Virus record (IMG/VR): IMGVR_UViG_3300011187_000006 | Coordinates: 1-64,000 of that record | Source: a virus | Direction: 5' to 3' (one strand) | DNA: 64,000 nucleotides | Part shown: positions 6,842 through 59,681 of the stretch, piece after piece | Position numbering within the stretch: the stretch's first letter is position 1 | How the letters are laid out: every line of letters starts with the position of its first letter | Notes under the pieces: generated by a model | The model's input: only the letters and a program-made list of their open reading frames with translations | What the model was told of the DNA's origin: nothing | Databases searched by the model: none | Program-made: the position numbers and the translations under genes

Positions 6842-7207
6842 ATGGGAAAAAGAAACAAAAGATTTATAAAAACAATGGCAATGTTTATAAAAGAAAGTGC
6901 TGAAGTGGACGAAACTTATATAGAGACAATTGAATTTGATGATGAAACATTAACTATACACAAAATTGCGGATAGTCCATTAAAAACACAGTTTTATGCT
7001 AATACATTGGAAGGAGAATCTTACATTGATATAAGTAAGATATTATCTGATAACATGTTAATAGATGCTGTGTGGATAGAGAAAGGTGGTGATGAAGAAA
7101 GAATAGCTGATAAAATAGATTGTTTGTCTAAAACAGACAAAACTACTAAGGCTGGTTTTAAAACTTTCATAATGTATAAAATGAACTACCCATTAGCTAA
7201 AGACTAA
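6842..7207 (+). CDS. Hypothetical protein; C-terminus supplied by IS right end
   Basis: 121 residues, no recognised domain; beta-rich with acidic centre. The last residues MNYPLAKD and the stop codon lie inside the IS200/IS605 right end (sequence from about 7181). The same MNYPLAKD-stop tail ends an unrelated short ORF at 43299-43406, next to a second copy of that IS end. The native C-terminus has therefore probably been displaced or trimmed by insertion. It is translationally close to the 6399 gene (2-nt gap), so it is probably in the same late operon. Confidence 0.6.
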   Translation: MGKRNKRFIKTMAMFIKESAEVDETYIETIEFDDETLTIHKIADSPLKTQFYANTLEGESYIDISKILSDNMLIDAVWIEKGGDEERIADKIDCLSKTDKTTKAGFKTFIMYKMNYPLAKD

Positions 7208-8382
7208 TGTGTTTCGGGTTTCACAGAGTGTGCTTCTTCACAGAAGTCTGATTTACTCTCCACCTTTGTATTGGACAGTCCCTGCCCAAATATTTTTAAA
7301 CCTTCTTTTAGAATGTTTTTACTTGCATTTATGTCCCTATCATGAGTTTCACCACAAGGTGAGCAAGTCCATTCTCTGTGTGAAAGTTTTAATCCTTGAT
7401 TTATCCAACCACAACTATTACAAGTTTTTGATGATGGAAAAAATCTACCTATTTTAACAAGTTCTTTTCCATACCAATTACACTTATATTGAAGTAATGT
7501 AACAAAATTACCCCAACTTACATCAGCAATATGTTTAGATAACTTATGATTTTTAATCATACCCTTTACATTCAAATCTTCAACACTTATTAAATCATAA
7601 GATTCGACAAGTTCTCTACTAACTTTGTGTAAGGTATCCAATCTACAACTTGCTATCTTTTCGTGAATTTTAGCAACTTTGAGTCTTTGTTTTTTAAACC
7701 CATTACTACCTTTTTGTTTACGAGATAAATGCTGTTGTACTTTCTTTAATTCTCTAGCATACTTTTTAGTATATTTATTATTTTTATATTTTTTATTATC
7801 TGAGGTAATCACAAAATCTTTGATACCTAAATCAATACCCACTTTTTTACCAGTTTTAGGTAATTGTTCGATTTCTTGTTCGGTGAAAATAGAAACATAA
7901 TATTTACCTGTTGGTGTTTTAGTAATGCTCATTTTACCAATTTTGCCTTTAATTTTTCTCCTATCTAATTTAACTTTAATACCACCTTTAAATTTAGGTA
8001 TAATTATTTTATTTTCTTCTAATCTACCAAACTGAGGAATAGTGAATGTGTTTTTGTTTTTTCTTGATTTAAAATTAGGAAACTGAGCATTACCACGAAA
8101 AAAATTAACATAAGAAGTATCTAAACACCTTAAAGCAAATTGTATAGTCTGGCTATTAACTTCTTTTAACCATTTATAATCTTCATCTTTCTTTAATTCT
8201 GTTAAAGATTTTGCTTGAACATAATAGTTATCTGATTTCTTATCTTTTTGATATTGTTCTTTACGCTCATTAAGAAAATGGTTATATATGAATCTTGAAC
8301 ACCCAAAATGTTTAGACAACAAGATTTCTTGCTCTTTATTTGGGCAAATTCTAAATTCATATGACTTATTAACGACTTTCAT
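7204..8382 (-). CDS. tnpB: TnpB RNA-guided nuclease (IS605 OrfB)
   Basis: 392 residues, the usual family length. An N-terminal helix-turn-helix-like region (FRICPNKEQEILLSKHFG) is followed by the split RuvC nuclease: GIDLGIKDF (Asp), SVEDLNVKGM (Glu) and HDRDINASKN (Asp), all present. A zinc ribbon, CNSCGW and CSPCG, lies between the last two. TnpB proteins are omega-RNA-guided DNA nucleases; the guide RNA normally overlaps the 3' end of the gene and the right end of the element, here around 7181-7400. All catalytic residues look intact, so it may be active. Divergent from tnpA. Confidence 0.95.
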   Translation of the reverse strand: MKVVNKSYEFRICPNKEQEILLSKHFGCSRFIYNHFLNERKEQYQKDKKSDNYYVQAKSLTELKKDEDYKWLKEVNSQTIQFALRCLDTSYVNFFRGNAQFPNFKSRKNKNTFTIPQFGRLEENKIIIPKFKGGIKVKLDRRKIKGKIGKMSITKTPTGKYYVSIFTEQEIEQLPKTGKKVGIDLGIKDFVITSDNKKYKNNKYTKKYARELKKVQQHLSRKQKGSNGFKKQRLKVAKIHEKIASCRLDTLHKVSRELVESYDLISVEDLNVKGMIKNHKLSKHIADVSWGNFVTLLQYKCNWYGKELVKIGRFFPSSKTCNSCGWINQGLKLSHREWTCSPCGETHDRDINASKNILKEGLKIFGQGLSNTKVESKSDFCEEAHSVKPETH

Positions 8383-10525: not shown

Positions 10526-10876
10526 TTAAAGATATACTTGCTTTAACTTTAAATTTCTTATAAATGATTTATTTTCTATAGCTTGTGAATCAGTAACTGA
10601 CAATATAAATGTAACTCTAACATCACCGTTTTTGAAAGCCGATGAAATTGTCATTCTTTCTATAGTAGAATTGTATAATACATAAGACACTTTAGGACTA
10701 TTATCATCATATATTATAAATTCAATATCGCCACTAGTTCCTTTAATATCTAAATACACTTTTTTTGGAATGGTGCATGTCATTTTGACCGATTCCCAAC
10801 TTTGCCAGCTATCAGGTCTTATGTTACTAACAATCTTATTACAAATGTAAAATACACTATTGTATATGAATTTCAT
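10526..10876 (-). CDS. Hypothetical protein
   Basis: 116 residues, not recognised; a beta-rich protein with no signal peptide or catalytic motif. On the coding strand a host-type promoter, TTG-N19-TATATTTG, lies 15-45 nt before the start, so early expression is likely. The hairpin at 10491-10521 works in both directions and probably terminates this gene. Confidence 0.6.
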   Translation of the reverse strand: MKFIYNSVFYICNKIVSNIRPDSWQSWESVKMTCTIPKKVYLDIKGTSGDIEFIIYDDNSPKVSYVLYNSTIERMTISSAFKNGDVRVTFILSVTDSQAIENKSFIRNLKLKQVYL

Positions 10877-10991
10877 TTTATTTATTTAAAACAAATATAC
10901 TAAATAATTATATATTGACAACATAATCATTATAAAAAATATATTTTTAGTGTTTTTTGCAAGGAGCGATGGTTTAGATTATATATAGAAA

Positions 10992-12731
10992 ATGGATAAT
11001 AAAACAAGAGAAGAATATAATACATTTATAGAAAAGGTAAGTCAACACTCAGTAAAAGAGTCTTGGGTTAAAAAGAATTTGCCCAATTTTTATGAATTTA
11101 CAAATAATTTAATTGGAATATCATTTACAGAAAAGGTATACTTAATAGAAAATGAAAAAGCTAAGTGTAAATCATGTGATGGTAATGTAAAATTTTTATC
11201 AATAAAAAGGGGATATAGGGAATTTTGTTCTTATAAATGTTCTAATAATAATTTAGCCTTAATTAGTACTAAAATATTATCTTTTAAAAAAAATAGCATA
11301 GATAAATGGGGTGTTGATAATCCATCTAAAAGTGAAGTGGTCAGAGATAAAATCAAAAAAAGTAAATCTATGATAGATTACGATAAAGTGAATGAAAAAG
11401 TGAAAAAGACAAATAATGAAAGATATGGAGTTGATAACGTATCGCAAATAGATGAAATAAAGGCAAAGAAAAAAATAACAACTAAACATAACTTTGGTGT
11501 TGATAATCCTTTTGAGTCAGAGGAAATTAAAAATATAATAAAGAAGCAAAATATGGTAAAATATGGTGTCACACATCATATGAAGTTGGGAAAAGTGATT
11601 GATAAACTTAAAAAAGACAATATAAATAGATGGGGTGTTGATAATTATACAAAAACTAAAATGTATAAAGAATTAATGTTTGAGAAATATAGAGGTTGTG
11701 ATATTAGAACTAACTTAAATACTAGTACGAATTATATGAATTACTTAGGTTTGGGAAAACATGAGATGTATTGTGATAACAAAGAAAACCACACATTTAT
11801 TACCAATTCTAGTTTATACCATTTTAGGAATAGACTAAATAATAAGCAATGCACTACATGTTTCCCAGTTATGAGTACTTCGTTTAAGGAATTAGAATTG
11901 TATAACTTTATAAAGAGCATATATAATGGACAAATTATACAATCCTATAGAGATGGTCTAGAAATAGACATATATTTACCTGAATTAAAAATTGGATTTG
12001 AGTTTAATGGATTATACTGGCATAGTGAATTATTCAAAGATAAAAACTATCACCTAGACAAAACCAAGCATTTTAACAAAAGGGATATAAGAATTATACA
12101 TATTTGGGAAGATGATTGGTCAGATAGAAGGGATATCTTAGAAAGTCAGATAAAAAATTGGATTGGATTAACGGATAATAAAATATATGGTAGAAAATGT
12201 GTTATAAAAGAAATAGATGATGTTAGTGAATATAGAAACTTCTTAAATAATAACCATATACAGGGATATGTATCTGCATCTTTAAAAATAGGACTATATT
12301 ACAATGATGAATTGGTGTCCTTGATGACATTTGACCATTTTGAAGGACGTAAGAAGATGTTAGACTCTGAATGGAATTTGTCAAGGTTTTGTAATAAAAT
12401 AAATACTAGTGTTATAGGAGGTGCTAGTAAATTAATATCATATTTTAATAAAACATATAAACCAACTCGTGTCATATCATTTGCAGATAAATCATGGTCA
12501 ACTGGTAATTTGTATACTAATCTAGGATTTTATATTAAAAATATCACATATCCCAATTATTCATATATAGTTAATAAAAATAGATCAAATAAACAAAAGT
12601 GGACTAAGAAAAAGCTTATTAAGATGGGTTATGATAAAAATTTATCAGAATCCAAAATAATGGAAGATAACCTTGGTTCTTATAAAATATTTGATTGTGG
12701 ACAGATAAAGTTTGAAAAAATATATAGATAA
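10992..12731 (+). CDS. VSR-like (EDxHD-type) free-standing homing endonuclease, second copy
   Basis: 579 residues, same architecture as the protein at 2815-4623. It has an N-terminal zinc-like CKSC and FCSYKC pair, then four to five KWGVDNPSKS/RYGVDNVSQ-type repeats. The nuclease core is EIDIYLPELKIGFEFNGLYW, then HLDKTKHFNKRD and IIHIWEDDW, and the C-terminus has the shared CVIKEI...NNHIQGYV region. The two copies diverge mainly in the repeat region, which probably sets target specificity (inference). It sits ~100 nt upstream of nrdB, a conserved phage gene that often attracts homing endonucleases. A TATATATAG element 4-6 nt before the ATG may be its promoter. Confidence 0.75.
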   Translation: MDNKTREEYNTFIEKVSQHSVKESWVKKNLPNFYEFTNNLIGISFTEKVYLIENEKAKCKSCDGNVKFLSIKRGYREFCSYKCSNNNLALISTKILSFKKNSIDKWGVDNPSKSEVVRDKIKKSKSMIDYDKVNEKVKKTNNERYGVDNVSQIDEIKAKKKITTKHNFGVDNPFESEEIKNIIKKQNMVKYGVTHHMKLGKVIDKLKKDNINRWGVDNYTKTKMYKELMFEKYRGCDIRTNLNTSTNYMNYLGLGKHEMYCDNKENHTFITNSSLYHFRNRLNNKQCTTCFPVMSTSFKELELYNFIKSIYNGQIIQSYRDGLEIDIYLPELKIGFEFNGLYWHSELFKDKNYHLDKTKHFNKRDIRIIHIWEDDWSDRRDILESQIKNWIGLTDNKIYGRKCVIKEIDDVSEYRNFLNNNHIQGYVSASLKIGLYYNDELVSLMTFDHFEGRKKMLDSEWNLSRFCNKINTSVIGGASKLISYFNKTYKPTRVISFADKSWSTGNLYTNLGFYIKNITYPNYSYIVNKNRSNKQKWTKKKLIKMGYDKNLSESKIMEDNLGSYKIFDCGQIKFEKIYR

Positions 12732-35574: not shown

Positions 35575-35711
35575 ATACTATATATTCAAATATAACAGTT
35601 TAGTTTGAATTATATGTTGTTTTTTGTGTTAATTTTTTTTGTTGCTTATTAACAACAAAAAGTGCTAAAATGTTGCTTATTAACAACATTTAGTTTTAAC
35701 TATAATTTTTG

Positions 35712-35784
35712 TCGAAGATGTCCGATTCGAACAGCAATTCGATGTCCCAAACATCGTGTGTTACCAGATTACACTACACCCTCG
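35712..35784 (-). tRNA. tRNA-Pro (TGG)
   Basis: Anticodon arm CGATG-TTTGGGA-CATCG gives TGG. Acceptor CGAGGGT pairs with ATCTTCG (two wobbles). The T-stem is weak (mismatches). Last of six tRNAs transcribed leftward. Confidence 0.8.
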
Positions 35785-35793
35785 CTATACTTG

Positions 35794-35867
35794 TTACCCC
35801 AGTAGGGTTCGAACCTACAATCTCCTGGACCAAAGCCAGACGTGTTAACCAATTACACTATAGAGCA
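35794..35867 (-). tRNA. tRNA-Gln (TTG)
   Basis: Anticodon arm TCTGG-CTTTGGT-CCAGG; T-arm GTAGG-TTCGAAC-CCTAC. Acceptor contains several G-T pairs. Near-duplicate of the tRNA at 36041. Confidence 0.88.
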
Positions 35868-35873
35868 TTTTTG

Positions 35874-35945
35874 CAGTCCATAGGGGATTCGAACCCCTAT
35901 CTTCCGAGAGACAGTCGGAAATGATAACCTTTACACTAATGGACT
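35874..35945 (-). tRNA. tRNA-Asp (GTC)
   Basis: Acceptor AGTCCAT/ATGGACT perfect; anticodon arm TCCGA-CTGTCTC-TCGGA. Position 37 is T, which is unusual. Confidence 0.85.
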
Positions 35946-35957
35946 ATTAAAAATTTG

Positions 35958-36031
35958 TCGAGAAGACAGGAATCGAACCTGCTAACTGATGCCTCCAATG
36001 CACCCGTGCTTATAACCTTAGTCACTTCTCG
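35958..36031 (-). tRNA. tRNA, anticodon reads TGG (Pro)
   Basis: Acceptor CGAGAAG/CTTCTCG perfect; anticodon arm GGTGC-ATTGGAG-GCATC; T-arm GCAGG-TTCGATT-CCTGT. A second TGG tRNA with A at position 32 and 37, unlike the one at 35712, so identity is less sure. Confidence 0.75.
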
Positions 36032-36040
36032 ATTAACTTG

Positions 36041-36114
36041 TTACCCCAGCAGGGTTCGAACCTGCAATCTTCTGGACCAAAACCAGATGTGTTAGCCAAT
36101 TACACTATGGGGCA
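36041..36114 (-). tRNA. tRNA-Gln (TTG)
   Basis: Acceptor TGCCCCA/TGGGGTA; anticodon arm TCTGG-TTTTGGT-CCAGA. Second Gln tRNA of the cluster, apparently by duplication. Confidence 0.88.
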
Positions 36115-36126
36115 ATTTAATATTAG

Positions 36127-36199
36127 CAGCTCTGATGGGAATCGAACCCACTCCGTTACGTGAGACAGACGTACATCTTAACCATTTGACCTCAGAGCT
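36127..36199 (-). tRNA. tRNA-Asp (GTC)
   Basis: Acceptor CAGAGCT partner of AGCTCTG; anticodon arm TACGT-CTGTCTC-ACGTA. First tRNA of the cluster, only 8 nt downstream of an intrinsic terminator. Confidence 0.82.
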
Positions 36200-49139: not shown

Positions 49140-50375
49140 TTAACTATCAACAAATTCTTGTTTGATTATTTTTATTATCTTCTCAATAGTCACATCCTCT
49201 AAATCTGTCATATTTACAAGTTCACTAAAACCATAAGATAGTAATGATTTAGCAGTATCTATACCAGCTTTTTTAAATTCATTTATTACCCATAAATCAA
49301 CTTCATCAGAAAATTCCATAAGATCTATATCTTCCTCTGTAGCTTGCTCATCATTTATAAGATTTATTTCTAGACCAGTAAGTAAGCTAGTTAATCTTAT
49401 ATTAGAACCTTTCTTACCAATAGCCTTACCAATATCTTCACCATTTAAATGAACGTCAGCTTTACCATCTTCTACCTTTATAAATTTAACAACGGCTGGT
49501 TTTAACGACCTAGTTATATATAAATCCATATTATTTGTGTAGCTTATGATATCTATACTCTCACCATTTAGCTCTCTAGTAACTGCCATTATTCGACTTC
49601 CTCTACTACCAACACAAGTTCCAACAGGATCAATTCTATCATCATATGTTTCCACTGCTACCTTAGCTTTAATACCAGGTACTCTAACTATGTTCTTTAT
49701 ATTTATTAGACCATCGAATATTTCAGGTATTTCTTGTTCCATTATTCTTTCTAGAAACTTACTTGATGTTCTTGATGCAATAATGTATGGCTTATTGTTT
49801 CTAATTTCAGCTTCTTCTACCACAAATGATATTGTATCACCTTTTCTGTAAAACTCACCAGGTATCTGATTATCTTTTGGTAAACAAATTTCAATACCCT
49901 CATCATCTAGTAATATAACCATATTTCTTTTTATGTGATGGACTTCGGCATTGAAAATATATCCAATCATATCTTCAAACTTCTCTATTGTTGATTTATT
50001 TTCGTAGTCTTTTATTCTAGCCTTTAGATTCTGTCTTAAACTTAATATAGATCTTCTTCCTAATTCTGATATTTTGAATTCTTGTGGATATTCTTCCCCT
50101 ATTTCAAAATCTGACTCCACCTTAAGAACTTCTGAAATTTCTATTTCAGTATTGTGGTTTTCAACCTCGCCATCTTGTACAACGATTTTGTTTTGCCATA
50201 TTTCTAAATCTCCGTTATCTGGGTTTAGAATTATATCAAAGTTTTCATCTGTATCATATTTTTTTCTAAACTCAAATCTAAAAACAGAGTCTAGGATTTC
50301 CATTATCTCTATTTTATTAATCATTTTGTCTGACTTAAGCTCAGTAAATGAATCTATAATTGATGTGTTATTCAT
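49140..50375 (-). CDS. nusA: NusA-like transcription elongation factor
   Basis: 411 residues, slightly shorter than bacterial NusA. The N-terminal domain (~1-125) contains VFRFEFRKKYDTDEN and the S1 domain follows (~135-200, VEEAEIRNNKPYIIASRTS). The middle has a conserved NusA signature: EIPEIFDGLINIKNIVRVPG then KVAVETYDDRIDPVGTCVGS. KH1 carries GSRGSRI and KH2 carries AIGKKGSNIRL. A short C-terminal helical domain ends the protein. NusA binds RNA polymerase and nascent RNA and controls pausing, termination and antitermination. A phage copy is unusual. Confidence 0.92.
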   Translation of the reverse strand: MNNTSIIDSFTELKSDKMINKIEIMEILDSVFRFEFRKKYDTDENFDIILNPDNGDLEIWQNKIVVQDGEVENHNTEIEISEVLKVESDFEIGEEYPQEFKISELGRRSILSLRQNLKARIKDYENKSTIEKFEDMIGYIFNAEVHHIKRNMVILLDDEGIEICLPKDNQIPGEFYRKGDTISFVVEEAEIRNNKPYIIASRTSSKFLERIMEQEIPEIFDGLINIKNIVRVPGIKAKVAVETYDDRIDPVGTCVGSRGSRIMAVTRELNGESIDIISYTNNMDLYITRSLKPAVVKFIKVEDGKADVHLNGEDIGKAIGKKGSNIRLTSLLTGLEINLINDEQATEEDIDLMEFSDEVDLWVINEFKKAGIDTAKSLLSYGFSELVNMTDLEDVTIEKIIKIIKQEFVDS

Positions 50376-55694: not shown

Positions 55695-56111
55695 TTATTG
55701 GTTATAAATTTCTCTAAAATATTTAGACACTAACTTCTTATCTGCTGGTAATTTACTAAACTTTTTCATAATACCACCTATGTTATCAACACCATCTTTT
55801 ATAAATTGTGAAACTTTCTCTTTTATCTCAATTTCGCTCATTTCTTTAGGAAGATACTTAGATATAATCTCAAGTTCTTCTTTAGCTACTTCATCACCAT
55901 TTGATAAGCTTTCCTTTAAAGATTTAGTCATCTTATTTAAAATTTTAGTAACTTCCTTATCAGATAGTGTTTCTACTCGCATATTCTTCTCTAATGTTTG
56001 AATTTCGCCTTTGACTACTGATAGAAGCTTTTTATCTAAATCTTTTCTAGCTTTAAAAGCCATCATGTAATCTTTACTGATTTCTTCCTTTAATGATAAT
56101 TTGTTTGACAT
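55695..56111 (-). CDS. GatB/YqeY-domain protein
   Basis: 138 residues, close to bacterial YqeY (~148). Features: an N-terminal helix (LKEEISKDYMMAFKARKD), VVKGEIQTLEKN, LSDKEVTKILNKMTKSLKES, the signature EELEIISKYLPKEMSEIEI and a C-terminal GGIMKKFSKLPADKKLVSKY. The domain is related to the tail of the GatB amidotransferase and binds tRNA; its exact role is unsettled. Fits the phage's strong tRNA and translation content. A structured RNA lies just upstream on the same strand. Confidence 0.8.
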   Translation of the reverse strand: MSNKLSLKEEISKDYMMAFKARKDLDKKLLSVVKGEIQTLEKNMRVETLSDKEVTKILNKMTKSLKESLSNGDEVAKEELEIISKYLPKEMSEIEIKEKVSQFIKDGVDNIGGIMKKFSKLPADKKLVSKYFREIYNQ

Positions 56112-56142
56112 CTTATAGTTATTTAGTTATTTATTATTAAAA

Positions 56143-56297
56143 AATATGAGAGACAAAAGCTTTTGTTAAGTGTGGACGGAAGCCTAGAACTCTAGTGTAC
56201 TTAACTTTTAGTGATCTAATCACTTGGGCTTACCTTTTAATGGTCTTGTGACCTTCTTTAAGCGTTGCTAAAACACTCATTTTAAGTCTCTCATATT
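56143..56297 (-). ncRNA. Structured RNA of unknown family, ~155 nt
   Basis: Ends pair perfectly over 12 bp: AATATGAGAGAC (56143-56154) with GTCTCTCATATT (56286-56297). Inside are GTTAAGT/ACTTAAC (56165-56171 with 56199-56205), the hairpins AGTGAT-CTA-ATCACT (56210-56224) and GGTC-TTGT-GACC (56242-56253), and AAAAGCTTTT. On the minus strand the closing stem is followed by T6, like a terminator, and the yqeY-like gene starts 32 nt further on. No ORF explains the conservation of pairing. Strand is inferred. Lacks tmRNA and RNase P hallmarks. The remaining ~280 nt up to 56575 show nothing clear. Confidence 0.55.
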
Positions 56298-56575
56298 CTG
56301 GATATTGTTATTAATATAATACACACCAGAAATATATTACATACTTTTTTATCATATATTTATATATATACGGGGTAGTTCATTGATTTTTATCAAAAGT
56401 AAAAAATTATTTGTCAACTACTTACTACCATAATTCCATTCATTCTACATACTTATACGTTATCGTATATTTTAAGTAATTGTATAAATGGCTCTAACAT
56501 AAAACTATCTTCAATTCAATTGTATCTACTAAGTTATGATTTTGGACTATCACATTTAAAATAAACAATTTGATA

Positions 56576-57811: not shown

Positions 57812-58246
57812 TTATGTATTTCTAGATATTTCTCTTTTTAAATCTTTTTCTTTTAAATCTTTTCTTTTATCATACAGTTTTTTACCCTTGCCAAGTCCTA
57901 TCTTTACTTTTATCTTATTAGATTTAATAAACACTTTTAAAGGCACACACGTATTTCCTTTATCTTTTAGAAATTTCTGTATCTTCTCTATTTGTTTTTT
58001 TGTCAAAAGTAGCTTTTTATCCCTATCTTCTATATGTACAACAGATGGGTGTGCATGGCTATATTTGCTTACTCTAAAGCTTTTAATATAGACCTCAGAG
58101 TTAGATATGAATATAAAAGAATCATTCATAGACACATTACCATCCCTAATGCTTTTAACCTCACCACCTTCTAACATTATACCACAGTCAAATTCCTCTA
58201 ATATATTAAAATCAAAATATGCTCTTTTATTTTTTATAGTTTTCAT
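57812..58246 (-). CDS. smpB: SmpB, tmRNA-binding protein
   Basis: 144 residues, typical length ~150. Signatures: NKRAYFDFNILEEFDCGIML, EGGEVKSIRDGNVSMNDSF and KVKIGLGKGKKLYDKRKDLK with a basic tail KEKDLKRE. SmpB delivers tmRNA to stalled ribosomes. No tmRNA gene is evident in this window, so it may work with host tmRNA. Co-directional with the 58248 gene, 1-nt gap. A phage-encoded SmpB is uncommon and agrees with the other translation-related genes here. Confidence 0.93.
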   Translation of the reverse strand: MKTIKNKRAYFDFNILEEFDCGIMLEGGEVKSIRDGNVSMNDSFIFISNSEVYIKSFRVSKYSHAHPSVVHIEDRDKKLLLTKKQIEKIQKFLKDKGNTCVPLKVFIKSNKIKVKIGLGKGKKLYDKRKDLKEKDLKREISRNT

Positions 58247-59075: not shown

Positions 59076-59681
59076 TTAAGAATACATTTTATCTATTTTA
59101 TCGAAATTGTTTTCACATATGTCAATTAAAAGCATACGACCATTTCTAATCTGTGATTTTATAGTGGACAAGTTTTTACCAAGATCACTAGAGATGTCTT
59201 TATAAGACATCTTTCTAATCTCTCTCATTTCAATAACTGTTCTATAAGGCTCTTTTAACCTATATATCGAATCTTTCATTAACTTAGCCTTTTTATTAAT
59301 AACAATATACTTAGACTCATCTTCATCTTCATCATTTGATATGAAGCTTTTCATTGTTGTACCATCATTGTCATATTCAACATCGAGTGATATAGACTTT
59401 TTGCTTTTTTTCACATCTTGATAAGATAAATTTTTAGCTATTGTAAATAACCATGTAGAAAATTGTGCCTTTGATTTATCATAAAGTTCTATTTTATTAA
59501 ATGCTACTATGAAAGAGTCAGTAGATATATCCTCTGCCTTTTTTCTATCATTACATATCTTAGATGTGAAGTATATTAGTTTAGGATAATACTTTTTATA
59601 TAGAAATGTAAAATCTTTACCAGTTCTTTCTTTAAATAATTTCTCTTTTTCCGAGAAATAGCTTTCTTGTTTTATTTCCAT
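59076..59681 (-). CDS. ECF-type RNA polymerase sigma factor (candidate late sigma)
   Basis: 201 residues. Region 2: LYKKYYPKLIYFTSKICNDR, KAEDISTDSFIVAF, FSTWLFTIAKN. Region 4: LKEPYRTVIEMREIRKMSYK, then a helix-turn-helix with LSTIKSQIRNGRMLL. An acidic insert (ISNDEDEDES) lies between them. It is the only sigma factor found here and the natural candidate to recognise TTAATATATA, analogous to T4 gp55 (inference). Upstream on its coding strand are both TTAATATATA (~75 nt before the start) and ATAATATATAA, so it may be autoregulated. Confidence 0.88.
   Translation of the reverse strand: MEIKQESYFSEKEKLFKERTGKDFTFLYKKYYPKLIYFTSKICNDRKKAEDISTDSFIVAFNKIELYDKSKAQFSTWLFTIAKNLSYQDVKKSKKSISLDVEYDNDGTTMKSFISNDEDEDESKYIVINKKAKLMKDSIYRLKEPYRTVIEMREIRKMSYKDISSDLGKNLSTIKSQIRNGRMLLIDICENNFDKIDKMYS

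Follow-up and report, generated by a model that had tools for sequence, protein, structure and literature searches.

A Conserved Two-Domain Phage RNA Encoded Upstream of yqeY

Does the folded sequence in an AT-rich gap of a phage genome, just upstream of a gene for a YqeY-like protein, represent a conserved RNA, and, if so, with which gene product might it act? The DNA analyzed here (the window) is a stretch of 64,000 nucleotides, positions 1 to 64,000 of the IMG/VR record IMGVR_UViG_3300011187_000006. An earlier note, made from the sequence alone, described in it a 155-nt multibranched RNA that is closed by a perfect 12-bp stem and resembles no familiar RNA class. This folded RNA is real: phages conserve it in linkage with yqeY, and it matches no Rfam family. 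A literature search, which was not exhaustive, found no description of a structured RNA of these phages.

RESULTS

Extent and strand of the RNA

The reported element folds better than each of 200 dinucleotide shuffles on both strands, with z values of -4.6 on the minus strand and -3.9 on the plus strand. Its perfect 12-bp closing helix (P1; Table 1) is present as previously described, with AATATGAGAGAC on the minus strand pairing with GTCTCTCATATT. Taken alone, a 12-bp helix closing 100 to 220 nt of the AT-rich gap is mildly unusual, arising in 2 of 60 shuffles, so that folding by itself is unconvincing and the proof has to be comparative. At the paired positions of domain 2 in alignment A5 (see below), there are 25 G-U cells versus only 4 A-C cells, which assigns the RNA to the minus strand, in the orientation of yqeY. 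The full RNA spans ~370 nt, from ~56510 to ~56140, and consists of two domains. Thus, the earlier description of a structured, multibranched RNA holds, but its 155 nt correspond to the 3′ domain only, and the structured unit reaches upstream well past them, to about position 56510. Besides the strand, the first reading had overlooked the upstream domain, the promoter-like element, and the likely pseudoknot that the P2 loop forms with the segment preceding P1.

Table 1. Positions in the window of the RNA, its helices, and the genes discussed with it
Feature	Position	Strand	Evidence or comment
Promoter-like -7 element TACAATTG	56517..56524	-	Alignment; degenerate Bacteroidetes TAnnTTTG
Domain 1, H-type pseudoknot	56341..56433	-	Model R2, 78.3 bits, E 8.5e-10 (window is in the R2 training set)
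Pa, GGUAGU/ACUACC	56429-56424 with 56379-56374	-	Domain 1 helix
Pb, UACUUUU/AAAAGUA, crosses Pa	56401-56395 with 56348-56342	-	8 distinct helices (strands picked by hand)
P7 hairpin, UUCUGG/CCAGAA, joins the domains	56296..56331 (56331-56326 with 56301-56296)	-	Covaries
Domain 2 (reported element), closed by P1	56143..56297	-	Model R1, 113.7 bits, E 4.9e-18 (window is in the R1 training set)
P1 closing helix	56297-56286 with 56154-56143	-	Perfect in 11/11 sequences
P2 hairpin, GAGUG..CGCUU	56260..56278	-	3/6 pairs changed on both sides; GAGCAG-AAUGGUAACA-CUGCUC in relatives; loop probably pairs with strand 5′ of P1
P3 variable hairpin, GGUC/GACC	56242..56253	-	Fold; length and sequence differ among relatives
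P4 small hairpin, GG/CC, UAAK loop	56227..56234	-	GA/UC in L014 and L069
P5 hairpin, AGUGAU-UAG-AUCACU, then conserved AAAAGU	56210..56224	-	96.9% of cells paired
P6, GUUAAG/CUUAAC, encloses P6a and conserved loop	56165..56205	-	100% of P6 cells paired
yqeY, 138 aa	55695..56111	-	Pfam PF09424, E 6.2e-14; start 31 nt downstream of P1
smpB	57812..58246	-	Pfam PF01668, E 1e-49; 1.5 kb upstream of RNA

Distribution among phages

A distant DNA search detected the element directly before yqeY in the 634-kb phage LR745206, and the yqeY gene of the 642-kb phage LR756502 is preceded by the same element. Scanning 2.9 million viral contigs for the P5 motif, regardless of gene context, yielded 36 stretches, six of which are true copies (L006, L014, L015, L017, L023, and L031), all directly before yqeY; the remaining ones show no sign of other parts of the element. 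YqeY-guided searches added copies in L040 and L041. The covariance model R1, built from 11 domain 2 sequences, produced a de novo match to a twelfth copy (L069, E 1.7e-9), which is also directly upstream of yqeY. Altogether, 12 phage records, among them these 634- and 642-kb genomes, contain the element according to covariance models. Domain 1 alone is found upstream of yqeY by model R2 in five records (L196 to L198, L201, and L205, with L196 and L201 belonging to the R2 training set), and domain 2 alone is found upstream of yqeY in a single genome, LR756502. The RNA, in the form of either or both domains, is carried by 17 phage records; in those searched whole, it is present in a single copy, and neither domain is found away from yqeY. 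Among 84,980 bacterial and archaeal genomes, the P2 motif occurs in six stretches, none of which is convincing by model (the best scores 22.6 bits, E 0.02), so that no copy from a cellular genome came to light. For the five phages over 634 kb described in PMC7162821, the predicted hosts are Bacteroidetes.

Covariation and architecture

Covariation analysis, which the earlier note had proposed, came out in favor of the structure: sister phages carry compensatory changes, and these are found in every conserved helix. In alignment A5 (11 sequences, 31 pairs of domain 2), 95.3% of cells form standard pairs, versus 24 to 42% in slid controls with the pairing partners displaced by 1 to 3 columns; 10 pairs are changed on both sides, and none of 500 shuffles is equally good. 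With the strands picked by hand and each located in its own sequence (as for Pb in Table 1), P1 shows 11 different helix sequences among 11 relatives, all perfectly paired, P7 shows 7 distinct helices in 10 relatives, and P0, a helix at the 5′ end that is not recognized in the window, shows 8 versions in 8 relatives. In P7, whose last two bases overlap P1, own-strand pairing is 0.98, versus 0.45 after swapping strands among relatives. The 7-bp inner helix seen earlier is P6 (GUUAAGU/ACUUAAC), where two pairs are changed on both sides; P6a is 95.5% paired, and two of its pairs are broken in the window. The two further hairpins, GGUC/GACC and GUGAU/AUCAC, are likewise borne out, and P5 of L069 reads GUGGU/ACCAC. 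In the relatives, the GGUAAC loop of P2 can pair with a GUUCC that immediately precedes the 3′ strand of P1; the corresponding sequences are AGC/GCU in the window, a compensatory change, and GGGAC/GUUCC in L069, so that this pairing is likely a pseudoknot.

Domain 1 was found by aligning the sequence upstream of domain 2. Its pairs are 96% formed, with 6 of them changed on both sides, and Pa appears in relatives as GGUGGU/ACCACC and GGUAAG/CUUACC. Upstream of the RNA, at the aligned place, TAnnTTTG is found in all 11 other loci, with an imperfect match in the window; the background density of this motif is 0.91 per kb per strand. These elements are putative promoters. In L069, ~250 extra bases (~6960 to 7220) with further hairpin-like sequence lie between the promoter element and domain 1.

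Linkage to yqeY

The downstream gene had been correctly recognized as YqeY-like: its product scores 52.7 bits with the PF09424 profile, versus the curated cutoff of 27, and the profile matches solved YqeY structures (PDB 1ng6 and 8xje). A search of viral contigs with a single YqeY protein returned nothing; alignment queries succeeded. Every placed copy of the RNA lies upstream of yqeY on the same strand, usually 20 to 80 nt away. The sister contig L042 and the window share 99.7% identity on either flank, but window positions 55717 to 56547, which comprise the promoter element, the RNA, and almost the whole of yqeY, are replaced in L042 by ~176 bp (7700 to 7876). The rest of this 141-kb record contains no YqeY and neither domain of the RNA; RNA and gene are gained or lost together. 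RNA-bearing YqeYs fall within one clade (support 95/86), and the pattern of RNA presence on the YqeY tree requires two changes, versus 11.6 in shuffles. The same clade includes relatives without the RNA (G018, G045, and the tRNA-Cys types), so YqeY can do without it. In L199 (1415 to 1486) and L213 (1412 to 1483), a tRNA-Cys gene is found directly upstream of yqeY, at the place of the RNA.

Searches for known RNA classes

The Rfam scan suggested in the earlier note supports its view that no familiar class is involved. With Rfam 15 at the gathering score, no family matches at the element and only tRNA families match elsewhere; at E values up to 10, any matches are at chance level and to unrelated families. 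The tRNA model and ARAGORN make no tRNA call at the element, and the OLE RNA model (RF01071) has no match there at any threshold used. Models of tmRNA and RNase P were tested on entire records and rejected. The tmRNA model (RF00023) detects 14 of 14 controls and has no match at the RNA in its own record or in 12 relatives; its subthreshold matches lie at other places, mostly at tRNA positions. The phage G017 (3300005613_000025), which also carries the RNA and SmpB, has its own tmRNA at a separate locus (10782 to 11155, 49.4 bits). A conserved peptide or tag translated from the ATGGTAACA start was rejected as well, as the frames stop at different points after 8 to 26 codons and their length changes are not in threes. 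Hammerhead-like or T-loop-like loops, inspected by eye, are not conserved.

Neighboring genes and a second RNA

In the window, the tRNA array contains two adjacent copies each of tRNA-Gln(TTG) and tRNA-Asp(GTC) (35711 to 36199), and genes for a NusA-like protein (49140 to 50375) and a sigma-70 family factor (59076 to 59681) are located near the RNA. SmpB is encoded 2 to 4 kb upstream of the RNA in the other domain 2 records checked, and 0.9 kb upstream in L069. We regard smpB as a neighborhood marker of the RNA and, at most, as a candidate member of the same system.

A second conserved structured RNA (RNA-B) is found directly upstream of yqeY in L160 (~1262 to 1455), with copies of this type in L177 (~2456 to 2672; LR756502, 614.7 kb) and L178 (~2466 to 2705; the 735-kb phage LR756501). 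It contains two motifs, GAGGAAGUUC and ACAGAAA, together with a helix that resembles P4, covaries, and has a bulged U (AGU-U-CAAC/GUUG-ACU or AGU-U-CGCG/CGCG-GCU). It has the look of a divergent RNase P RNA encoded by phages, although the Rfam models give no match to it. Its kinship with the yqeY-linked RNA was considered and rejected: because R1 does not match L160 and LR756502 has both, the two are treated as different RNAs. Genes for RnpA (PF00825) are found in LR756502 (525189 to 525473), LR745206 (76444 to 76752), G004 (3300049793_000366; 165889 to 166158), and G035 (3300032236_002285; 440379 to 440669); two of these four huge-phage genes are in genomes that also carry an RNase P-like RNA.

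DISCUSSION

Possible functions of the RNA

Given this architecture and this linkage, we infer a mechanism in which a stand-alone phage noncoding RNA of ~370 nt acts with YqeY as a ribonucleoprotein, a tentative reading to which we give slightly less than even confidence. The RNA would be transcribed from its own Bacteroidetes-type promoter, and the transcript would end around the P1 helix and a U-rich tail; YqeY, the product of the gene behind, would bind it, and in the infected cell the resulting particle would work in trans, with the function of tRNA or of ribosomes as its most likely target. Such targets are proposed because YqeY domains bind tRNA at its D-loop side and because P2 with its AAUGGUAACA loop resembles a D-arm, a likeness seen by eye at a place where the tRNA model has no match. 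The YqeY domain of GatB has been placed at the tRNA D-loop by modeling, and without this domain activity is lost (PMC4027206); in addition, the group working on OLE RNA has presented preliminary evidence that YqeY binds that RNA (PMC12054373). The phage YqeY may likewise bind the RNA described here.

The main alternative, possible in our judgment though somewhat doubtful, is a cis-acting 5′ leader of yqeY that binds either YqeY, as autoregulation in which the RNA mimics the tRNA target of this protein, or a small molecule, and that employs P1 and the U-rich tail as a regulated terminator. The invariable strand and short spacing agree with a leader, as does the strict adjacency to yqeY, apart from which the RNA is never found. 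A U-rich stretch follows P1 in most relatives, and Pb of L201 and L205 ends in a run of U7-8 right before yqeY. Furthermore, most relatives have no promoter or terminator between the RNA and yqeY, which leaves room for a leader. However, in L196 to L198, the RNA and yqeY are separated by an intrinsic terminator of 11 bp with a U-rich tail (expected number in shuffles, 0) and then by a separate promoter-like element, TAATTTTG, and this arrangement favors a stand-alone RNA over a leader. A promoter-like element, TACATTTG, is found at this place in L040 and L041, and a small ORF intervenes in LR745206. Moreover, inspection by eye of the stretch from P1 to the ATG revealed no anti-P1 or start-codon-sequestering pairing, and the RNA is very large and sequence conserved compared to leaders.

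The remaining explanations fare less well. A partnership with SmpB or another neighbor, for example, as a very derived ribosome rescue RNA, would agree with the proximity of SmpB (0.9 to 4 kb upstream in the domain 2 records checked) and with the presence of an above-cutoff tmRNA in only 1 of 12 records checked, but it is improbable: the tmRNA model does not match the RNA, the sole record with its own tmRNA (L069/G017) carries the RNA as well, many SmpB-bearing phages lack the RNA, and L042 has kept SmpB without the RNA and yqeY. We consider it very improbable that the RNA is a highly derived RNase P RNA, closed by P1, with the bulged-U pseudoknot being P4-like and ACAGA just before it. Although the topology of the P2-loop/GUUCC pseudoknot with its bulged U is suggestive and an RNase P protein gene is present in some of the phages that carry the RNA, the type A model (RF00010), which detects 11 of 14 controls, finds nothing in 34 of 34 records, the RNA lacks the GNAANNUC that is universal in conserved region I, and LR756502 has a separate and better RNase P-like RNA at 614.7 kb. 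Finally, a functionless chance foldback of AT-rich DNA, with which the only mildly unusual closing helix would be compatible, is refuted by the extensive compensatory change across divergent phages and by the de novo model match in L069 (E < 1e-8), and its probability is negligible.

Returning to the ribonucleoprotein, a broader version of the proposal, which we consider unlikely as a whole, is that huge Bacteroidetes phages carry a YqeY ribonucleoprotein of their own, which contains a noncoding RNA of two domains, each able to exist by itself, and which remodels tRNA use or ribosomes in the course of infection as a viral counterpart of the OLE particle. If this is true, stand-alone YqeY proteins would have a defined RNA partner. 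To our knowledge, these proteins are widespread and have no settled function, and a strictly linked, covarying RNA is a concrete candidate ligand for them. With this RNA, a conserved family absent from Rfam is added to the translation-related genes carried by the largest phages known.

Comparison with known RNA systems

OLE RNA is ~600 nt long and occurs mostly in Bacillota. The phage RNA resembles it in being a large, ornate noncoding RNA with a fixed neighboring gene, and YqeY is a preliminary OLE partner (PMC12054373); the two differ in host and domain layout, and the phage RNA has no Rfam match. GOLLD and ROOL, large structured bacterial or phage-linked noncoding RNAs without an assigned function (PMC12286853), are similar in kind but much larger, and, again, the phage RNA matches no Rfam family. 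Huge phages carry tmRNA and SmpB (PMC7162821), and the full transcript is comparable to tmRNA in length, in having pseudoknots, and in having smpB nearby, but it lacks a tmRNA match and a tRNA-like CCA end, and its tag-like ORFs vary in length. Autogenous leaders of the ribosomal protein style and T-box leaders are, like it, structured and precede a gene whose product binds RNA; the phage RNA differs from them in its size, its two separable domains, its own promoter element, and, in one lineage, its own terminator.
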